A stretch of 56,288 nt of DNA from Candidatus Brocadia sp. GTDB lineage: Bacteria; Planctomycetota; Brocadiia; Brocadiales; Brocadiaceae. A program made the translations under genes and the position numbers. Below the pieces are notes generated by a model, which was not told where the DNA came from, ran no database searches, and worked only from the letters and a program-made list of their open reading frames with translations. The number at the start of each line of letters is the position of its first letter. Position 1 is the first letter of the stretch. The stretch lies in NCBI GenBank assembly GCA_011525665.1, contig WYAU01000082.1:1-56288 (forward strand). Direction: 5' to 3'. This document shows, one piece after another, positions 2,236 to 36,118 of this stretch.

Positions 2236-3111
2236 TCAAACAACGCCACGGAGTTTCTTGAATTCCTCCGGCAAAGGTACTTGTTTGAAGCCCAGAGCAA
2301 AAGCCTTTGAGCTATCAAGTGAAACATCCGGAGGTCTGGGTGCTGCCACAACCACATCCTGTTGCCTGCACGGTATCAACCTGGCTTCATGAATACCAAG
2401 GGTATCCATGAGCAACTTGCCGAAATCGTAGCGTGATATACGTTCAATACCTCCTAAATGGAGTAATCCGCTAACCTTTCCAAGAGCCAGAAAAATCCCG
2501 CAAACAGCAGCTTTTACACTTATCGGGGTCCTGAATTCATCCACAAACAGACGCAACTCCCGACCCGCCCTCATTGCCTCTATCATTGGTTGAATAAAGC
2601 TTTTGGCGCCGGGTCCGGGAATACCAAACATCAAGGCCATACGGCAAACAGCAACCACAGGATGGTATTTGAGCATACCCTTCTCAGCCAATACCTTCTG
2701 TTCACCATAAAAATTGACGGGACAAACGGGATCTTCCTCACGGTACGGGGCATTCAAACCATCGAAGACCAAATCAGTTGATGTAAAAACGCACGGGATT
2801 TTATGGTCGGCACAAAGGGCTGCAACATTAATAGAGGCATCGACATTGATTTTCTGTGACTCAATCCGATGGGTCTGACAAAAATTCGGGTCAGATTTCG
2901 CTGCTGTGTGGATTACTGCGTCAGGATGGATATCCTGAAATAATTTCCTTAGTTCCTTATAATCTGTTAAATCGATCCTCATGATGTTTACGCCTGCATT
3001 TTCCACACGATGGGAAAAAACTGTCCCGAATGTCTTCCATGCATTCTTCGCTGTCTGACAGATATTCCAGCCAAGGAAACCACTTGCGCCCGTAACGAGC
3101 AATTTTTTCAT
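2236..3111 (-). CDS. NAD(P)-dependent SDR, RmlD-like dTDP-4-dehydrorhamnose reductase family
   Basis: This extended short-chain dehydrogenase/reductase has 291 residues. The N-terminal GASGFLG is the nucleotide-binding glycine motif, the middle has the serine/threonine element TSTDLVFDG, and YGEQK is the catalytic YxxxK. Similarity is greatest to RmlD-type dTDP-4-dehydrorhamnose reductases, which make nucleotide sugars for surface glycans; the exact substrate cannot be read. The frame is open to 3183, but ATG 3111 (MKKLLVTGASG) places the Rossmann motif at the expected position. No other rhamnose genes adjoin it, so a general sugar epimerase/reductase call is safest. Confidence 0.85.
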   Translation of the reverse strand: MKKLLVTGASGFLGWNICQTAKNAWKTFGTVFSHRVENAGVNIMRIDLTDYKELRKLFQDIHPDAVIHTAAKSDPNFCQTHRIESQKINVDASINVAALCADHKIPCVFTSTDLVFDGLNAPYREEDPVCPVNFYGEQKVLAEKGMLKYHPVVAVCRMALMFGIPGPGAKSFIQPMIEAMRAGRELRLFVDEFRTPISVKAAVCGIFLALGKVSGLLHLGGIERISRYDFGKLLMDTLGIHEARLIPCRQQDVVVAAPRPPDVSLDSSKAFALGFKQVPLPEEFKKLRGVV

Positions 3112-3195
3112 ACGAAACTCAGTTTGTTTTTCTACCAATAGATTTAGAGGAACACATTCTTTTATTACTGCGTCCAGATTCATAATTGAGGGATT

Positions 3196-3617
3196 CTAAA
3201 AATTTGTTGGCGTGTACTCATTCGCTGGAAATTTTCCTGCGTGATTGCCAGGTGTCATTTCCCAACACTTTGCTTTTTCATGATATCAAAGAAAGAATCA
3301 TGTTCACAAACACATGGAGTATTGGCAGCATCTCCAAGATGAATTACGGGGGTATGGGCGCCATAGGCTTCTACTACCCGTTGCAGAAGGTCAGAACAAA
3401 ATAAATCCTGTTGCACAGGCCTGATAGCTACAGGAATAACCTTATCTATTATTCCGTTTCTTAATGCGTTAATAGGATTCCCATACAGATTGTTAATCTG
3501 GTTATCTGAAATAATTAATACCTCGGGCAACTTCTCAAAGGGCAATTCTATTTGTTCTCCACACAAATCGCTATTAAACAAATTGATGAATGAGGGTACC
3601 CTCGCATAATTTGTCAA
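3196..3617 (-). pseudogene. Truncated, frameshifted copy of the neighbouring metallophosphoesterase
   Basis: The first 120 codons (3617-3255) encode a clear paralogue of the N-terminal third of the 563-residue phosphoesterase upstream, including a SDNQINNLYGNP stretch, IRPVQQDL and the metal-site motif HLGD. The frame then stops at 3255. In another frame the sequence continues with MTPGNHAGKF, matching the PGNHD metal motif of the intact gene, and ends at a TAG at 3196-3198. The remaining two thirds, with the AHHP and GHTH motifs, are absent. It lies 34 bp after the hammerhead gene in the same operon. It looks like a decaying tandem duplicate, not a functional enzyme. Confidence 0.8.
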
Positions 3618-3651
3618 CAGGAGATCTCAATACTTCACGCTCTGTTTTAAT

Positions 3652-3939
3652 TCAGGAAATCTGTGCCAGAAGTTGCGAAGGTTCATACTCCAGATTTTCA
3701 AAACGTATGCTTCTATTCAAGTATTTTACCTTTCCTGCACATCCACCGGGGGCTTTTAATGATTCAAGCGAGTGATCACCCCATTGAATCGTTGCAAGGA
3801 CATCCTCAGGTTCAACATTATCGCCTACTTCCTTTTTCCAATCTATCGAAGCAACATATTCTTCTTTCTCTGCAAATGCTGCCGGATTATTTCTCAACTC
3901 TTTAGTGGTAGCGTCATAGGTGACCAATGGGTTACTCAT
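3652..3939 (-). CDS. Small biotinyl/lipoyl-like hammerhead domain protein
   Basis: This 95-residue soluble protein carries a segment (roughly residues 28-93) resembling the biotinyl/lipoyl or HlyD-type barrel-sandwich hybrid: VGDNVEPEDVLATI followed by LKAPGGCAGKV, the usual x-x-APxxGxV turn. The canonical EAMKM or DKA acceptor lysine motif is missing at the hairpin, so covalent biotin or lipoate attachment is doubtful. The start overlaps the end of the phosphoesterase gene by 8 bp, indicating translational coupling. The role is unknown; it may be an adaptor for the envelope proteins of this operon. Confidence 0.65.
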   Translation of the reverse strand: MSNPLVTYDATTKELRNNPAAFAEKEEYVASIDWKKEVGDNVEPEDVLATIQWGDHSLESLKAPGGCAGKVKYLNRSIRFENLEYEPSQLLAQIS

Positions 3940-5623
3940 TATTGACTCCTTTCGGGGAAGGGAAACGTATATACGGGTCTGTTACTACAGGTTTGCGTCC
4001 TTCTAGTTTGTCGTATTTACTCGCCCACACTGCCTGCCACAGTCTGTAGTCGCGTCTCTCAAGCGAATTCCTTACTTTTCTCTTTTTGTCAAATCCTTCC
4101 AATGTTATTAAGAGAGAGGTCATTTCCTTTATGTCTTTATTTTTCAATACCCCTTCAATAGCATTAATAACAGCTTGGTCGTTTGAACAGTCCTTTACCC
4201 AGACAGTATTGTCTTCGGCGCTTTCAACATTAACGAGAAGTTCTCTATACGTATGCAGGAGCGCGACAAGCAGATCTTTTTGAGTCTTTGTTGGATCCAC
4301 CTCATACTTATAATTATGAGCCAGGTAAAAATTTTCGGCGTCTGTTTCTTTAATCTCCCACTTCACTGCATTACATTGCGGCTTCATGGGAGGAACTGCG
4401 TTGTCCCAAATATCAGGTATACGAAATAGCGGGGTACGAATGACAATATTTTTAGGATCGTTTTTAATCTGATGAATTTCAAATGTTCTGAATTCAATGG
4501 GCCAATCAACTATGGAACCAACATTAAGCTCGATCCACCCGTTGTCTCCACCCTGAACATAGTATTCACCCTGATGTGTGTGACCTGAAACATAAAGAGG
4601 AATAGTGTATTTTTCCCTAAACATGTCAATTTTATGACTCGTACTCGTTATCAGACTTGAATAAGGATGGTGAGCCATTAAGATTGTTATTTTTTCCCCC
4701 TTCGGAGCATTACTAAGCCATCTCTCTGCAATTTCAAGCTGATCCGACAGCATACTGCCACTGAGCCCAGCGCTATATGATATTGATGGTATCGGTGGTA
4801 TTGTGGGAGCATTCTCATATTGGGCGCTGTCCATCAATATCGCGTATACAGGTAAATCCGAATCTCCTATACACAGGTTAAGCTCCTGCAACACATAGGA
4901 ACGATATGGTCTCTCCCTATCAATCTTATATGCAACAGATTTCAGGAATTCCTTGCAGATTTCTTCACTATTTGCAGGAAGCAAAGTAGTGCTAACAGTA
5001 CCAATATTTTCCGGCCATTCCCCCAGGACAGGATGATTGTCAAGGTACTTCCCAAAGTCTTCATTCTGTTCTTTCAGATGATTTAGATATTCTTCAACAA
5101 ATCGATCCTTGGTCATCGGACCATTAGCTTCCATGCAAGCGCTTTTCCAATCCCTTTCCAAATTGTGAAGATTGCCCAGGAGATAAGCATCGTGATTTCC
5201 GGGCACCATAACCCAAGGTTGTTTTGCTGTATTCATAATTTCACAGAACGATTCAAACTCACCTATACAGGCAATGTTCGTGCCATCCCCAAGATGAACT
5301 ACCGGATGTCTCTTTCCATAATATTCCAAGACCCATTTCAGGATATCTTGACCGTAAAGGTCTTGCTGCACAGGCCGTATAGTCACAGGGACAAACTTAT
5401 CAAATAACTCATTTCTCAACCAGAAGGGGTCACCGTACAGGTGATTGAGCTGATTGTCAGCAACCAACAACAATCTCTTTGACACAGCATAACCATCAGG
5501 TTTTTCTGGTAGGATTTCATACTTGGACGAAATAGATCGGGGGGCACTACCGCAACCAATGAAATACATGGTCAGAAATAATAGAACCAGTGTGCTCATT
5601 ACCTTTTTTGTAAAATGCATCAT
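3932..5623 (-). CDS. Calcineurin-like metallophosphoesterase lipoprotein
   Basis: This 563-residue protein has a signal peptide with lipobox YFIGC (Cys 24), so it should be anchored in a membrane outside the cytoplasm. Metallophosphoesterase motifs appear in order: ADNQ (55-58, in place of the usual DxH), HLGDG (110-114), PGNHD (141-145), AHHP (317-320) and SGHTHQ (346-351), forming the expected dinuclear metal site. About 200 extra C-terminal residues show no recognised domain. Start ATG 5623 is preceded by GAGGAG. The gene is the second of the leftward operon beginning at 7071, under the c-di-GMP riboswitch and sigma-54 promoter, and is coupled to the hammerhead gene. The substrate (nucleotide, phospholipid or glycan phosphate) is unknown. 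Confidence 0.88.
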   Translation of the reverse strand: MMHFTKKVMSTLVLLFLTMYFIGCGSAPRSISSKYEILPEKPDGYAVSKRLLLVADNQLNHLYGDPFWLRNELFDKFVPVTIRPVQQDLYGQDILKWVLEYYGKRHPVVHLGDGTNIACIGEFESFCEIMNTAKQPWVMVPGNHDAYLLGNLHNLERDWKSACMEANGPMTKDRFVEEYLNHLKEQNEDFGKYLDNHPVLGEWPENIGTVSTTLLPANSEEICKEFLKSVAYKIDRERPYRSYVLQELNLCIGDSDLPVYAILMDSAQYENAPTIPPIPSISYSAGLSGSMLSDQLEIAERWLSNAPKGEKITILMAHHPYSSLITSTSHKIDMFREKYTIPLYVSGHTHQGEYYVQGGDNGWIELNVGSIVDWPIEFRTFEIHQIKNDPKNIVIRTPLFRIPDIWDNAVPPMKPQCNAVKWEIKETDAENFYLAHNYKYEVDPTKTQKDLLVALLHTYRELLVNVESAEDNTVWVKDCSNDQAVINAIEGVLKNKDIKEMTSLLITLEGFDKKRKVRNSLERRDYRLWQAVWASKYDKLEGRKPVVTDPYIRFPSPKGVNNE

Positions 5624-5769
5624 TTATCTCCTCATGATGACCATTATCGTAACTAAATTATCGTTCAAATAAAAAACAGTGGTTATTCAGGAAATTGTAT
5701 GGAATAAAATTAATTTATCCATACGGTACCTGTGCTTCGCAACCACGCGTCATGGTCTCTCGTGTTTTT

Positions 5770-7071
5770 TTACTGCGGCCTTGCAGGATCCGTGTCAGCA
5801 GAAGTGTCTTTGTTATTGCCATTACTCTTTTCTTTTAATCCCGCAACAGCTTGTTTTAATTCATCTATAGTTTTGCCTGTTTCTTCTTCCCACAATCTTT
5901 CTATTTCCCGTTTTACCCTCGCGTCAGCTTCAGAAGTGCCACACTGTTGATATTGTTTGGCGAGGGCCGCTTCCTTATCTTCGCCTTTCTTTCCGCTAAT
6001 AGAATTTTTAATCTTAAATATTCTCACTGTTGCTTCAGCGGTGACTCCCATTTTCCTTATAGCATCTATCTTATCTGCCTCCGACTGACTTGGTTGAATC
6101 AGTATGCCACCAAGAGTTTCTTGAACATTCGTGCTTATTTGATCAAGTATTGCTCGGTCAACGGCCTTAGCAGACTTTGATACCGTTAAAACAGCGTATG
6201 TTTTATCTTCGAAATCCTTGCCTCCTGCAGTTAATCTTCCGGTAGTTGCGTCATAAAGCACCTTCGATGATTCGAATTCCTTTTTTGCATTATCTTCATC
6301 TTCAATTCCTTTATCAAGCCACCACCATCGGTTTATTATTACCCGGTCTTTATCCTCCCTTTTCACTATGACTAAATCACTTACTTCCAGCGGTGCTACC
6401 AGGGATGCCTCTCCATAATGCTTCTTTTCGATGTCTGACAACGGATAAAGAGTTATTTCCTGGGAAAGTTCAAGATCATCCTGATTTGAGTTAATAATAA
6501 ACTGCATGATAGAAGATACGGTCTCTATTGCTGCGCCATATTGTGGTTGTGCAGCACTAGCAACGGTAGAAACAGCTTTGAGAACCTCTGAAAGCAATTC
6601 ATTATTTTTCTTATCCAATTCAAAAACATAGAACTTTATTGTTACGGGATGTCCCTGGAAGTGGGTAGGACCATATAACAGGTTGCCAGCCATATTTAAA
6701 TATGAATTTGACGGTTGATTCAATCTGTGAAAGGCCACTCTTTTCAGCACTTTTGTCTCATCAACAACATCATAAACCTCTGCATACACGATAATATCGA
6801 AATCCCAAACGGACTGTGCGTACTTCAAATAGAGGGTTTTCAAAGAAATAGCAACAACATCCGAAGGCAATTTTATACTCCGATCTTCATTGGTATCTGT
6901 CGTCGCGTAAATCCCAACCAGTTCATATTTCGTACTTTCCGCTGGGGTTTCCGGTGAAGTTTCTTTCACTTTCCATAAAGAATTTTGCCCGGTTATTGTC
7001 CATTGTGCACATCCTGACAACATTGTTGTTACACATAGCACGGCAAATAATATGCGATGCTTAATATTCAT
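5770..7071 (-). CDS. Lipoprotein of unknown function, first gene of c-di-GMP-controlled operon
   Basis: This 433-residue protein starts MNIKHRILFAVLCV and has a clear lipobox LSGC (Cys 21). No known domain was recognised. The centre contains a beta-rich segment with a conspicuous NRWWWLDKG stretch; the C-terminal 100 residues are charged and predicted helical, ending in a low-complexity Asn/Asp/Pro-rich tail. The frame is open to 7218, but ATG 7071 has AGAAAGG upstream and begins the signal peptide. It precedes the phosphoesterase lipoprotein by about 150 bp on the same strand. The long leader (about 630 bases) contains the riboswitch, terminator and a large hairpin. Confidence 0.8.
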   Translation of the reverse strand: MNIKHRILFAVLCVTTMLSGCAQWTITGQNSLWKVKETSPETPAESTKYELVGIYATTDTNEDRSIKLPSDVVAISLKTLYLKYAQSVWDFDIIVYAEVYDVVDETKVLKRVAFHRLNQPSNSYLNMAGNLLYGPTHFQGHPVTIKFYVFELDKKNNELLSEVLKAVSTVASAAQPQYGAAIETVSSIMQFIINSNQDDLELSQEITLYPLSDIEKKHYGEASLVAPLEVSDLVIVKREDKDRVIINRWWWLDKGIEDEDNAKKEFESSKVLYDATTGRLTAGGKDFEDKTYAVLTVSKSAKAVDRAILDQISTNVQETLGGILIQPSQSEADKIDAIRKMGVTAEATVRIFKIKNSISGKKGEDKEAALAKQYQQCGTSEADARVKREIERLWEEETGKTIDELKQAVAGLKEKSNGNNKDTSADTDPARPQ

Positions 7072-7197: not shown

Positions 7198-7248
7198 TTC
7201 ACCTAAATCCTGCATCAAGGCGAAGCCTTGATGCAGGATTTAGGTGAA
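7198..7248. repeat. Perfect 24-bp stem hairpin in the operon leader
   Basis: Arms 7198-7221 and 7225-7248 are perfectly complementary around a 3-base loop. On the minus strand the loop region reads GGC-TTC-GCC. The hairpin lies in the 5' leader of the lipoprotein operon, 127-177 bases before the start codon. No T-run follows, so it is not a normal terminator. It could be a mobile palindromic repeat, an RNA-stabilising element or a processing site. Confidence 0.75.
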
Positions 7249-7531
7249 AACATGTAAAAGTCCATGTTCTGCATTTTGTCATATTGCTCAATTAAGGTCC
7301 TTTTCAACTTTTTGCGTTTGCGCAAGGGTGTAATCTATCTTTTCTTTTTCCTCTTTGTTGCCCATTCATTGATGTCCTCGCATGTATAAATGATGTCACA
7401 TTATAAATACTGCTTTTGAGGGGCCGCTCAGGTGGGGTGTTTTTTACTGAAAATCAGCGTTTTTAATGGCGTTTCCACATGTTTTCATAAGATTCCCATA
7501 CGTTGGTCATGTTTGTCCGGGGGCAATAAAT

Positions 7532-7584
7532 AAAAAAGCCTTACTGCAAAGATATTTACTCAAAACATCTTCGGCAGTAAGGCT
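7532..7584 (-). terminator. Intrinsic terminator of c-di-GMP riboswitch (locus 1)
   Basis: On the minus strand GCCTTACTGC (7583-7574) pairs with GCAGTAAGGC (7547-7538), followed by TTTTTT. The 5' arm CCTTA can alternatively pair with TAAGG at the start of the upstream aptamer. Termination and the ligand-bound aptamer are therefore mutually exclusive. Confidence 0.85.
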
Positions 7585-7685
7585 GTCTTTATTCCTGCAA
7601 AAATGGCTTTTTCAAACCACTTCCGTGTAGATTTAAAGATCCACTACTTTGCGCCCCCTGATCGCTCAGGGTTTACCCTTATCGT
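7581..7685 (-). promoter_or_regulatory. Cyclic di-GMP-I (GEMM) riboswitch, locus 1
   Basis: The minus strand reads GATAAGGGTAAACCCTGAG, then GATCAGG, then GGGCGCAAAG, and ends GACAGCC. These are the conserved blocks of the GEMM-I aptamer (GGGCAAACC, short P2 hairpin, GGACGCAAAG, ..GACAGCC). P1 is TAAGG/CCTTA. Because CCTTA is also the terminator's 5' arm, ligand binding should prevent termination (ON switch). Two positions differ from consensus: GGGTAAACC for GGGCAAACC, and GGGCGCAAAG for GGACGCAAAG. Affinity may therefore be lower than that of the second copy at 36 kb. It controls the lipoprotein-phosphoesterase operon downstream. Confidence 0.85.
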
Positions 7686-7713
7686 AATGTTTTCCAAAAG
7701 TAAAATTAGCTTT

Positions 7714-7846: not shown

Positions 7847-7902
7847 AAAGTGTGCCATGTCACACAAGTGAGTCGCGACACATGTGTGACATGGCACACT
7901 TT
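7847..7902. promoter_or_regulatory. Clustered palindromic operators (probable enhancer-binding sites), locus 1
   Basis: Arms 7847-7866 and 7883-7902 form a perfect 20-bp inverted repeat. Each arm contains GTGTGCCATGTCACAC or its complement, itself a 16-bp near-palindrome of type GTGTG-n-CATG-n-CACAC. The 16-bp spacer has another dyad (GTCGCGAC). The lack of a flanking T-run and the position 120-175 bp upstream of a sigma-54 promoter argue for binding sites of an RpoN activator and against a terminator. A matching cluster is present at 36259-36307. Confidence 0.7.
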
Positions 7903-31892: not shown

Positions 31893-34800
31893 TTACTGAA
31901 ATGCATGTTGAAGCAGATTAATTATTCCCATGCCTCCGAGTGGTGTAAGTGATGCAAAAAGTATAGGATTATTGCTTAATGTAGCAAAGGCGCCATTTCT
32001 TGTATTCTGAATATCTTCTATAATAAATCTTGTAAACCCTAACTCTCGCTCTAATTTCTCATTGTTTGACTCACTGCTCGTTTGTTTTTTATCCTTCATC
32101 AATTTTAGAAGCTTATCTTTTAATTGGTCAATGACTTTCTGCCGTCCTCCTTTTGCCTCACGGAACAGCATGATTGCACTATACAGTACAATCAGTATGG
32201 ACAGCACTACAACAACTGCCAGAGGCAATGTCCATTTCCAATTATCAATAAAATTATAGCGCGCAATACAGAAGATAAGTAACAAAATGAACGGGTACTT
32301 GATCATCTTTGCATTTACCTCCGTCCTTTTTGCAATAACTTTGATAATAACATACCAATAGTCGTCGTTCTGTTCGTTTCCTTTCAATTGAAATAATTCC
32401 TTTATAAACTTACGGCATTTGAACGTATCAAAAACAACATGCCAGAAGAGAAAGAACGTTAAAAAAAGGCTGGAAATCAGAATAACACGGTCTAGGCTAA
32501 AACAGAGAGAACCGCGACCGGGTATTAAAGGGTTTCCATACTTATATATAAATGCAAATCCAAGAAGTAAGTGAACACATGTAATGATAGCAACTGTTCT
32601 ATATCTCTTCCAGGTTTCGTTACTTTTTTCAAATGTATGCCACTTTTCTTTAAGATCAGCAAAAAAGCCTTCCCCTTTTTGCTCTGATAATATATGCGCT
32701 ATTTCCTCCTTATTACGCTTAACATGTTGTAGAGAGAGGGCAAAAAAGCATGTTCCAAGAAATCCGTTCAAAAGCCGGATCAATTCGGTTGGCCAAATAC
32801 TAATACCATCAAGAAATGTTATTGGTTCACCATCCGCACTGAGGGATGATTTTATTGCAAGTGCAACAAATAGTACATAAAACGCTCCCCCTATAATCCC
32901 AAGACATTTCCAGTAACACATGAACTTCAAATATGTTGGGAAATCACTAAAATCATTTTGATCAGGCAAAAATTGCCAGAAGAACCAACCAAGTATTATT
33001 ATAGGGGGAACAAACAGACATATGAAAAATTTTATCTGCACATACGTCCGATCAGGATGAAGATATAACTCCTCCTTTCGTAATTCTGTTTCTGGTGTAT
33101 GGTCTGAACTTAAATCATATTCACCCCGATACCCTATTTCAAAGATGCGAGGAGATATCTTATTTAAATTAATATCATCTTCCTTTAAACTACCCAATGC
33201 CTGCAAAGCGGCAACAAAGGCAGAGGTTTGATAGACGGATCTGAAAGGTGGGATGTCTTTTTGCAAGTTATGACGTAACTGCAGTCCATAACTCGATGCG
33301 ACGATCAGGTTCCTTGTAAAAGGTAATTCGGTATGATGCCAGAGACGGGCGTCAAGGTCTGTGGTAAAAAAAATAGTATTGCGAAATTCTTTACGAAGCG
33401 CGCGTAATATCAACAATTTATCATAAACATCGCTGCCCATTATACCAATCGCCCGAATTTTATCACGATCGTTTACGATATTTTTTACTTTTTCTGTAAG
33501 ACGTCGCATATAGTCAAATTGGTCTTGTCCCTGGGGTTGTTCGAATTTAGGATTGAAATAATCAAAATCGGTTGGTGAACTCTTCTTCTTGTCGCTATTG
33601 GAATTACCTCCGGTAGATATTTCTGAATCCCTGTTAGGCAATTTACCATCGATACCACGCATATAGGTAATGGTATGAATACGTTCAGGCCAGGTATTGC
33701 CAATCCTTTGCGGGGTTTCTTCTGAATAAGCCTTCTCTAAAAGAAGGCGATTCAATCTTTTTGTTTCCCATTGAGTATCCTCACTTAAACGGGAAAAACC
33801 AATACTGCGGTCTTCTTGAGTCTCTTTTATAATGTTAGACAATCGGTCTTTACCCCTCACTTTACCCAAAAAGTCATACAATCCAGGATTTGTTAAAAAT
33901 TCGTTTAGCCAATCGATTGGCTTGCGGGAAGCATTCAGAGGCAATAAAGGAATAAGGTCTGGAGCCTTACCAGGGTAAATGTGTGCCAAGACAAGACGGT
34001 TAAGCAATTTTATGGCATATTTTTCATCGTTGTTCAACTTGGAAAAACTTTTCTTTCTGTACCTAACTGTTTTATTATTCAATTCCTTTATAATTTTGCC
34101 AGAAGTTATCTCTCGTCGTTTTTCTGAAGGTATTTTATCATAAAAATCAGGAACTTTTAAAAGTTCATTGAGCCACTCAATGGTATGACTGGATACGTTC
34201 TTGAAAGGAGGCACTCCATAATCAGCACGCTCAATCTCAATACAGAGTGTTACGATATCATGTGGTTGTTTAAATTCGTCCTTGCGAAAGTCTATAGAAT
34301 TTAATATGTCCTCAATAATCTTCTTATAAAGCCTCTCTGGGTTCAATGGTTCCTTAAACTCACCCTTAAAGAAATCTGAATAACCCTCCTCCCGTTCACG
34401 ATATTTTTGTACAGACATAGCAAAAGAGGTCGGTAAGGCACGTCCGTAAAAGGTATCCCATTCACTAATAAGCAGTATATGATCGGAGCTATTGCTTGAC
34501 AAATTTATTTTTCGACGTGTCAACTCATCAACCAATTCATCGGTCAATTGTGAATCATTGTGAATGGTAGCTGTTAAGGAAATATCTGATTCTGTTGGGA
34601 ATAGTAATGTATAAAAAGCATCCTTTTCAAGATATTCTTCTAATTCTTTCTTAATTTGTATGAGATTTGAAATACTTTTTTGAGGTTTTTCTCTTTTAGA
34701 CATACGCTGCCCAATTTGATATATTAAAAAAAAAGGGTCTGCATTAGCCCATGGAGAATATAATATAAACTTTTTCTCTGAAGAATTCTTTAATATCTTT

Positions 34801-35921
34801 TTTATCTCTTCTATTTTGTCGGAATGCTTCTTTTTAGCTGATTCTAATTCTGATTCTAATTTTTTTATTTCAGATTCAAACTCTCTTTGCTCATTTTTTA
34901 TTTTTGATTTTACATCTTCAAGAAGTTTTTTTCTTTTATTTTTACATAAGCTATCCTTTCTATTATCTAAATCTTTAAATTTCTTACTTAAAGATATCCA
35001 TATTCCACGCACTTCATTTTTTTCTTTACGTTCTTTACGTTCAAGTTGTTTTTTTTGTAAATTAACTTTTTTCTCTTTGTTAAACAAAGCATTTTCAGAT
35101 TCAGATAATTCATATAATTTCTGAATATTTTCAGCTATTTCTTTGTTTTTTTCATCAAGTGCCTGCTTACAAATCTCTTCAAGGCATAAAGAGTCTTTAG
35201 GGCCAAGAATCTTACAATCAACTCTATCGGAACCCTGCTTTCCATCTGCATCTTTTACCTCTATTACAAATTCCTTAACTACCTCCAGCACTTGCTTCGT
35301 TATCAATTCCATCTGACCTAATCGGTCATTTGAAAAATATTCGTCCCCCAGCCAAAGGACAAGAACTGCCTCGTAAGTATTTGTGGCTTCTGCGTCCGAC
35401 ATCTTCAGGGTATCCTGAAGATACCACTCGTATGGTATAAGGCGTTCTTGTCGGTTGATCTGTGCTTTGAACACCCCAATATGTGTGGCATTTTTGGGTT
35501 GATAACCGGCAGCATGAAGCGCAGAAAGCACGGCATATCGGGTTCTCAGGCGCTCTTCCGCATCTTCTGTATAATGGCCAGCACTTATCATAACAGGCAT
35601 GATCAACACATCCTTAATGTCTTCCTGAGATTTAAATATCCCGGATTTCTGACAACCGTCCATTATGTTTGGAATGGAAAATTTTGGATGAATTGCCTCA
35701 GTATCTTTTCTATAACCTTCAACCGCTTGAAATGGGTCCTGCCACAAACGGGCAAGCACTTTTTCTTCTTCTATCTGCTGTTCTATTTCTTTTTGGCTCT
35801 TGGACGGCCGGAGTGATTCTAAAGGCGAATAGAAAGTAAAAACACCGCCTGCAATAATGGCAGCAATAAGCAGGGTAATAGAAAATGGAAACGATGATTG
35901 CTTGTCTTGGTGATCGGTCAT
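31893..35921 (-). CDS. 1342-residue polytopic membrane protein of unknown function, c-di-GMP controlled
   Basis: Layout by residue: TM helix 11-31; a mixed domain with VLIMPVMISAGHYTEDAEERL (about 105-215); highly charged coiled coil 250-380; a second globular region 385-560. An internal duplication follows (about 581-650 and 669-737, both with WLNExLxxPxxYD ... FSxLxxD ... LNRLxL). A PBP-like segment (about 820-915) includes GIMGSDVYDKLLILRAL, FFTTDLDARLWHH and RNLIVASSYGLQL. Seven C-terminal helices occupy 960-1255. No Walker, kinase or nuclease motif was seen. The DARL/NLIVASS block recalls ligand-binding folds of amino-acid ABC receptors, but this is weak. The gene stands alone behind a sigma-54 promoter and c-di-GMP riboswitch like those at 7.5-7.9 kb, which links it functionally to the phosphoesterase operon. 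Confidence 0.85.
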   Translation of the reverse strand: MTDHQDKQSSFPFSITLLIAAIIAGGVFTFYSPLESLRPSKSQKEIEQQIEEEKVLARLWQDPFQAVEGYRKDTEAIHPKFSIPNIMDGCQKSGIFKSQEDIKDVLIMPVMISAGHYTEDAEERLRTRYAVLSALHAAGYQPKNATHIGVFKAQINRQERLIPYEWYLQDTLKMSDAEATNTYEAVLVLWLGDEYFSNDRLGQMELITKQVLEVVKEFVIEVKDADGKQGSDRVDCKILGPKDSLCLEEICKQALDEKNKEIAENIQKLYELSESENALFNKEKKVNLQKKQLERKERKEKNEVRGIWISLSKKFKDLDNRKDSLCKNKRKKLLEDVKSKIKNEQREFESEIKKLESELESAKKKHSDKIEEIKKILKNSSEKKFILYSPWANADPFFLIYQIGQRMSKREKPQKSISNLIQIKKELEEYLEKDAFYTLLFPTESDISLTATIHNDSQLTDELVDELTRRKINLSSNSSDHILLISEWDTFYGRALPTSFAMSVQKYREREEGYSDFFKGEFKEPLNPERLYKKIIEDILNSIDFRKDEFKQPHDIVTLCIEIERADYGVPPFKNVSSHTIEWLNELLKVPDFYDKIPSEKRREITSGKIIKELNNKTVRYRKKSFSKLNNDEKYAIKLLNRLVLAHIYPGKAPDLIPLLPLNASRKPIDWLNEFLTNPGLYDFLGKVRGKDRLSNIIKETQEDRSIGFSRLSEDTQWETKRLNRLLLEKAYSEETPQRIGNTWPERIHTITYMRGIDGKLPNRDSEISTGGNSNSDKKKSSPTDFDYFNPKFEQPQGQDQFDYMRRLTEKVKNIVNDRDKIRAIGIMGSDVYDKLLILRALRKEFRNTIFFTTDLDARLWHHTELPFTRNLIVASSYGLQLRHNLQKDIPPFRSVYQTSAFVAALQALGSLKEDDINLNKISPRIFEIGYRGEYDLSSDHTPETELRKEELYLHPDRTYVQIKFFICLFVPPIIILGWFFWQFLPDQNDFSDFPTYLKFMCYWKCLGIIGGAFYVLFVALAIKSSLSADGEPITFLDGISIWPTELIRLLNGFLGTCFFALSLQHVKRNKEEIAHILSEQKGEGFFADLKEKWHTFEKSNETWKRYRTVAIITCVHLLLGFAFIYKYGNPLIPGRGSLCFSLDRVILISSLFLTFFLFWHVVFDTFKCRKFIKELFQLKGNEQNDDYWYVIIKVIAKRTEVNAKMIKYPFILLLIFCIARYNFIDNWKWTLPLAVVVVLSILIVLYSAIMLFREAKGGRQKVIDQLKDKLLKLMKDKKQTSSESNNEKLERELGFTRFIIEDIQNTRNGAFATLSNNPILFASLTPLGGMGIINLLQHAFQ

Positions 35922-35943: not shown

Positions 35944-35993
35944 AAAAAACCTTACTGCAAAGATATTCATGCTAAGCATCATTGGCAGTAAGG
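35944..35993 (-). terminator. Intrinsic terminator of c-di-GMP riboswitch (locus 2)
   Basis: On the minus strand CCTTACTGC (35993-35985) pairs with GCAGTAAGG (35958-35950), followed by TTTTTTTAT. The T-run ends about 20 bp before the start codon at 35921. The 5' arm overlaps the P1 strand of the aptamer, exactly as in locus 1. Confidence 0.87.
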
Positions 35994-36092
35994 CTGTCTT
36001 TTTTAAACCGTTGAAGCAGTTTAAACCATTTCAACTGTTAGAAAGACCCTTTCCTTTGCGTCCCCCGATCACTCAGGGTTTGCCCTTATCGT
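35992..36092 (-). promoter_or_regulatory. Cyclic di-GMP-I (GEMM) riboswitch, locus 2
   Basis: The minus strand contains GATAAGGGCAAACCCTGAGT, GATCGGG and GGACGCAAAG, a variable P3 arm and closing GACAGCC, matching the GEMM-I consensus blocks exactly. P1 (TAAGG/CCTTA) competes with the terminator at 35950-35993, so ligand binding should allow read-through. The GGGCAAACC form with G at the discriminating position suggests c-di-GMP rather than cGAMP, though only binding tests can settle this. It controls the 1342-residue protein. Confidence 0.9.
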
Positions 36093-36118
36093 GATTTTTA
36101 ATTTACGAATGATTAGAG

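Follow-up and report, generated by a model that had tools for sequence, protein, structure and literature searches.

Are the genes behind a riboswitch for the biofilm signal cyclic diguanylate (c-di-GMP) in the anammox bacterium Candidatus Brocadia a fixed envelope module, or one of several gene sets exchanged at a conserved, regulated site? The question arises from one whole Ca. Brocadia contig (56,288 nucleotides, contig C78 of genome G000; hereafter the window), on which genes for a lipoprotein, a metallophosphoesterase lipoprotein and a small protein follow a c-di-GMP-I aptamer. A first-pass annotation of this DNA had read the three genes as a candidate envelope module, perhaps part of an undescribed c-di-GMP-responsive system that also includes a co-regulated protein of 1342 amino acids (aa) encoded elsewhere on the contig. 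Comparison with related genomes supports the response to c-di-GMP but not a fixed module. A site shared between species, with a switch standing before genes that differ, suggests a swappable, biofilm-gated accessory locus.

A riboswitch coupled to a terminator

Read in the direction of transcription, on the minus strand, the locus consists of the aptamer (7570-7687), an intrinsic terminator (7523-7598), a leader of about 450 nt, the genes for the 433-aa lipoprotein (5770-7071), the 563-aa phosphoesterase (3932-5623) and a 95-aa protein (3652-3939), a 120-codon open reading frame (ORF; 3255-3617), an RmlD-like gene (2236-3183) and rnpA, the last recognized by eye. The first-pass annotation described real, tightly linked genes with lipoboxes in two products, and this is accurate to the base: the 8-bp overlap lies between the 95-aa and phosphoesterase genes, 34 bp separate the 95-aa gene from the ORF at 3255-3617, and the lipoboxes read LSGC in the 433-aa and FIGC in the 563-aa protein. 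The lipoprotein and phosphoesterase genes are 146 bp apart. Shine-Dalgarno-like sequences precede the lipoprotein, phosphoesterase and 95-aa genes; none was found before the fourth ORF.

The aptamer matches Rfam RF01051 at 51.1 bits (gathering score, 35 bits), and the alignment spans the full model, positions 1-87 of 87. The terminator is an inverted repeat (arms at 7523-7547 and 7574-7598) that leads into a run of U. Its 5' arm, GCCUUACUGC, doubles as part of the aptamer's conserved 3' end, and this overlap couples the aptamer to an expression platform. The minimum-free-energy fold of the leader yields the terminator. Because terminator arm and aptamer are mutually exclusive, ligand binding should promote read-through, and the riboswitch upstream of the lipoprotein operon is predicted to be an ON switch. 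In G106 and G212, genomes of two other Brocadia species, a DNA orthologue of the aptamer with about 82% identity occupies the corresponding site. This orthology, the Rfam match and the overlap between terminator and aptamer together support a response of the operon to c-di-GMP, as had been proposed in the first-pass annotation.

The leader also contains an inverted repeat of 24 bp, perfectly matched and closed by a 3-nt loop (7198-7248, minus strand; repeat search). It occurs once in the genome and was rejected as a dispersed element; it may be a hairpin or an assembly artifact. Another long inverted repeat (24 nt, 96%) lies just upstream of the riboswitch, at 7847-7902.

Exchanged cargo between conserved flanks

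Depending on the gene, the searches covered 10 other Brocadia genomes (11 with that of the window), 61 other Brocadiales genomes or 198 other genomes sampled across the phylum. The RmlD-like sugar-nucleotide reductase (Pfam RmlD_sub_bind, 2.2e-50) marks a conserved flank of the variable site: rmlD is present in 10 of the 11 Brocadia genomes and adjoins rnpA in every region examined, and an ABC-F-like ATPase gene comes after it in six of them. The gene lies outside the cargo and is possibly reached by read-through from the operon. When the window is aligned with G106 at the DNA level, rmlD (82.5%), the riboswitch (82%) and mgtC (86%) align, and nothing does in between. In G106 the space between the riboswitch/mgtC flank and rmlD is occupied by a 577-aa ORF in which an alpha/beta hydrolase is fused to a caspase, and by the gene for an exported, hydrolase-like protein of 397 aa. 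The corresponding alignment with G212 takes in the riboswitch and rmlD as well as a stretch of the lipoprotein gene, and the G212 riboswitch is followed by genes for a TIR-like protein, a caspase-DUF7379 protein, two membrane proteins, a GMC oxidoreductase, the lipoprotein, a 108-aa protein, a phosphoesterase of another subfamily and, finally, RmlD. With a G+C content of 0.39-0.42, the cargo falls below its flanks (0.44-0.46).

A caspase gene has left a scar in the window. Thirty residues encoded at 7414-7503 (minus strand) are 60% identical to residues 540-569 of the G106 hydrolase-caspase (E=4e-6 in a comparison against the whole window) and represent a decayed C-terminus with an in-frame stop, and among the 11 Brocadia genomes the window's alone gave no caspase match. 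The orthologous riboswitch, the differing genes behind it, the scar and the loss of the caspase together indicate that cargo has turned over beneath a retained riboswitch. A fixed, conserved three-gene operon is rejected, and the first-pass envelope module finds no support as a fixed set: the phosphoesterase is absent from all 10 other Brocadia genomes, the lipoprotein is present in 2 of the 11 (the window's and one other), and the 95-aa gene is known solely from the window's genome among those searched.

The phosphoesterase and its broken copies

The 563-aa product passes the Pfam Metallophos model (PF00149; 4e-12, 47.4 bits against a cut-off of 21.5), and motifs I to V align at 5441-5458, 5276-5296, 5189-5203, 4664-4675 and 4574-4588 (minus strand). 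The full set of metal motifs claimed for it in the first-pass annotation holds for motifs III (PGNHD), IV (HHP) and V (GHTH), which are canonical, but not for the first two: motif I is D56-N-Q58 in place of DxH, and motif II is GDGTN, where relatives mostly have GDxxD. The canonical D-x-H of PF00149 is absent from the window enzyme and from every aligned relative, and D-x-Q (DNQ or DCQ) is common to this enzyme, a truncated copy in the window and the five full-length Planctomycete relatives that were aligned. The superfamily signature tolerates DX[H/X] at motif I, D-x-H being common and not obligatory (PMC3407115), and ADPRibase-Mn has D[V/I]Q here, its Gln having been modelled as one of the residues that bind metal (PMC4334965).

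The truncated copy, which the first-pass annotation left out, is the 120-codon ORF at 3255-3617. It is 46% identical over 108 aa to the N-terminal part of the phosphoesterase (genome search match, 2.2e-23), contains motifs I and II only and ends after motif II, and is probably a pseudogene of a second phosphoesterase. A third copy, broken by an in-frame stop and 40% identical, is found on contig C60 of the same genome.

Phosphoesterases of the window type occur in 1 of the 61 other Brocadiales genomes and in 5 of the 198 genomes sampled over the phylum, and they are lipoprotein-like wherever the start is readable. The two lipoboxes and the lipoprotein-like nature of all five full-length aligned relatives support an envelope location for the lipoprotein and the phosphoesterase. 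No relative was found with the phosphoesterase as a lone query against genome contigs, or with an alignment of it against viral contigs. Its neighborhoods in other Planctomycetes show no conservation and no known pathway, and the unrelated known pathway that would have spoken against the first-pass proposal did not appear.

The lipoprotein and the 95-aa protein

The 433-aa lipoprotein belongs to an unnamed family with a TGQNSLWK motif; it has no Pfam or NCBIfam match, and a profile search of the PDB gave no convincing homologue. Close homologues, 47-62% identical, come from two Brocadiaceae species, namely one other Brocadia (G212) and the Brocadiaceae metagenome-assembled genome (MAG) S40-1, which has two such loci, and distant relatives are scattered across other Planctomycetes. 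A metallophosphoesterase or part of one adjoins the lipoprotein gene in all four close loci, the window included. The neighbor is complete in G212; on S40-1 contig C95 it has a split reading frame and a D-V-Q motif I and is a distant relative of the window phosphoesterase (E=5e-6); on S40-1 contig C419 it is a C-terminal piece, recognized by eye through an SGHAH motif. A full-motif phosphoesterase regular expression matched six times in the focal loci and module and had no match in 355 kb of Brocadiales DNA taken as a control, a rough control in which the loci are phylogenetically dependent.

The "hammerhead protein" of the first-pass annotation, the 95-aa product, is reduced to a weakly barrel-sandwich-like orphan: its match to Biotin_lipoyl (E=0.015) scores 15.6 bits, below the Pfam cut-off of 22.1, it has no signal peptide by eye, and no homologue was found in the 61 other Brocadiales genomes. 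A likeness of the protein to a lipoprotein segment (YDATT) was weak (E=0.042, a single comparison) and was dropped.

A proposed c-di-GMP-induced accessory locus

The best explanation, to which we give an even chance, is that Ca. Brocadia has, bounded by rnpA-rmlD and mgtC, an accessory locus of variable cargo that c-di-GMP induces, and whose cargo in the window is the lipoprotein and the membrane-anchored metallophosphoesterase, with a decaying second copy and a caspase scar. The riboswitch, the shared site, the changing cargo, the scar, the lipoboxes and the metal motifs can be read from the sequence itself; the ON direction, the export, the substrate and a physical partnership are what we infer from them. 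In such a locus, the sessile, aggregated state would raise c-di-GMP, which would bind the aptamer; binding would keep the 5' arm out of the terminator hairpin and let transcription run into the cargo. Lipoprotein and phosphoesterase would be exported by Sec and then lipidated. The D-x-Q (ADPRibase-Mn-like) di-metal center of the phosphoesterase could then, outside the cytoplasm, split a phosphoanhydride or phosphodiester bond in a nucleotide-diphosphate derivative or a phosphorylated polymer, with the lipoprotein as partner or tether.

Several points weigh against this explanation. The loci compared stem from MAGs, and the two S40-1 loci lie on short contigs on which no riboswitch was found. 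The phosphoesterases adjacent to the lipoprotein fall into different subfamilies, which makes a specific protein-protein partnership doubtful, and the check on phosphoesterase density used a motif regular expression as its control. The structure model of the lipoprotein is poor (predicted local distance difference test, pLDDT, 48) and that of the phosphoesterase unusable (pLDDT 34), so that fold and active site are supported by sequence alone. The top PDB profile match of the phosphoesterase, the ADPRibase-Mn prototype 2NXF, is non-significant (E=0.066), which points to a resemblance in kind and not to membership in that family.

The 1342-aa protein, caspases and the c-di-GMP regulon

The alternative that survives best draws on the 1342-aa membrane protein (31893-35921, minus strand), a member of a Brocadiales family with homologues in 15 other Brocadiales genomes. 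It belongs to the same regulatory class as the lipoprotein operon, with a second c-di-GMP-I aptamer upstream (35981-36094, minus strand; RF01051, 56.2 bits). The protein has no Pfam match up to 0.01, and its family profile found no PDB homologue and only stray weak Pfam matches. Neither in it nor in the lipoprotein, the two proteins scanned, was an adaptor or NTPase regulator recognized by Pfam or PADLOC.

In the Brocadia genome G049, a single c-di-GMP-I riboswitch stands before one operon that comprises genes for the homologue of the 1342-aa protein, a calcineurin-type phosphoesterase and a caspase-DUF7379-like protein. The homologue is clustered with phosphoesterases and patatin, subtilase or hydrolase genes in three further Brocadiales (G239, G241 and G232), and with a distant lipoprotein homologue, a patatin and astacin-like and papain-like peptidases in G236. 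The lipoprotein-linked phosphoesterase of G212 and the phosphoesterases linked to the 1342-aa homologues of G049 and G239 belong to one family. The link to the 1342-aa protein that the first-pass annotation had drawn thus finds partial support in other genomes; in the window the protein is encoded on a separate transcript. Its homologue stands alone in two Brocadia genomes (G210 and G211), and in G106 and G138 fragments of the gene remain at the position syntenic with that in the window (L206 7876-8355 and L205 7419-7898). In the more distant genome G199 (L201 2049-11034) a few kb separate a homologue from a SIR2-like protein.

The riboswitch class is abundant in these genomes, with 35 c-di-GMP-I aptamers in that of the window, 56 in G106 and 19-56 across the 11 Brocadia. 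Products of the genes behind such aptamers, named by eye, include cytochrome-like proteins, exported surface and repeat proteins, a response regulator of the sigma-54 type and a phage-tail-sheath-like protein; sugar-related genes occur there too. By hand count, a c-di-GMP-I aptamer lies upstream, on the same strand and no more than about 7 kb away, in 14 of the 22 Brocadia caspase loci examined, several of these loci being orthologous and not independent. In eight of the 22 (L159, L123, L161, L162, L168, L169, L171 and L173) the aptamer is directly ahead of the caspase gene, and in six more it is farther off. The open literature searched, outside which most subscription papers lie, gave no account of c-di-GMP riboswitches in anammox bacteria or of a caspase link.

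Two aptamers precede genes that were again named by eye. At L094 1501-3116 a c-di-GMP-I riboswitch stands before a phage-tail-sheath-like protein, possibly part of a contractile injection system, and at L012 4162-5375 one stands before a PAS-GGDEF diguanylate cyclase, a possible feedback loop. The L012 contig also carries a broken phosphoesterase copy.

These associations would fit a modular conflict or programmed-death system, in which the 1342-aa protein, caspases, patatins, TIR-like and SIR2-like proteins, peptidases and phosphoesterases would be effectors or regulators armed by c-di-GMP on aggregation, and the window would be a reduced version with two transcripts and two riboswitches. The joining of 1342-aa homologues with phosphoesterase and caspase under one riboswitch, their clustering with patatin, subtilase or hydrolase genes or near the SIR2-like protein, the aptamers upstream of caspase loci, the turnover of cargo and the decayed copies all argue for it. 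We nevertheless regard it as rather unlikely. PADLOC matches for the window genes are absent or marginal, the 1342-aa protein has no recognizable domain and stands alone in two Brocadia species, the caspase is gone from the window's genome, and nothing observed points to toxicity or defense. Plausible, though less likely than not, is the broader reading of an undescribed modular, c-di-GMP-gated Brocadiales effector system: a membrane protein of ~1050-1600 aa, calcineurin-type phosphoesterases, the lipoprotein family and exchangeable hydrolases (caspases, patatins, papain, subtilase and astacin peptidases, and alpha/beta hydrolases) that the riboswitch would arm on aggregation. Most of the novelty would lie there.

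An ordinary nutrient-scavenging phosphohydrolase, induced in biofilms with a structural lipoprotein and freeing phosphate from extracellular nucleotides or the matrix, would agree with the exported lipoprotein phosphoesterases that occur singly, with no conserved partner, in other Planctomycetes. We consider it improbable: no phosphate-related genes were seen nearby, and scavenging leaves unexplained both the caspase cargo at the same riboswitch and the recurrent pairing with the lipoprotein family. A degenerating island of little present function, as the truncated phosphoesterase copy, the caspase scar, the orphan ORF and the low G+C might indicate, is very improbable given that the lipoprotein and main phosphoesterase are intact, motifs III-V canonical, and aptamer and terminator preserved.

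Should the accessory-locus or effector-system reading be true, the riboswitch would serve as a constant control point at which envelope or effector cargo is exchanged, and c-di-GMP, the aggregation signal, would be linked with caspase-like proteases in bacteria put to use in wastewater granules. A D-x-Q phosphoesterase lipoprotein family in Planctomycetes would also become open to testing.

Comparison with known systems

With the ADPRibase-Mn-like family (ADP-ribose/CDP-alcohol diphosphatase, PDB 2NXF), the window enzyme shares the metallo-dependent phosphatase signature with Q in motif I, and 2NXF is its top, though non-significant, PDB profile match. It differs in being a 563-aa lipoprotein in which a large insertion separates motif III from motif IV and the C-terminal region is long, and the middle residue of motif I is N or C (DNQ/DCQ) in place of V or I (DVQ/DIQ).

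The bacterial caspase/TIR conflict systems (PMC8195603) resemble the loci described here in their caspases, TIR-like proteins and variable effector cargo at related loci, and in their occurrence in aggregate-living bacteria. Differences are that no NTPase or Death-like adaptor was recognized here in the 1342-aa protein or the lipoprotein and that the regulation is by c-di-GMP riboswitch; neither riboswitches nor c-di-GMP is mentioned in that paper. In place of a caspase or TIR effector the window retains the 30-aa caspase scar only, the effectors being present at the orthologous sites of G106 and G212.

The c-di-GMP-I (GEMM-I) riboswitch operons, finally, have in common with the locus the aptamer class, a terminator-type expression platform and control over surface or export genes. 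What sets the Brocadia case apart is the exchange of the gene set behind an orthologous riboswitch from one species to another, and the number of riboswitch copies, 35 in the window's genome and up to 56 in a relative.

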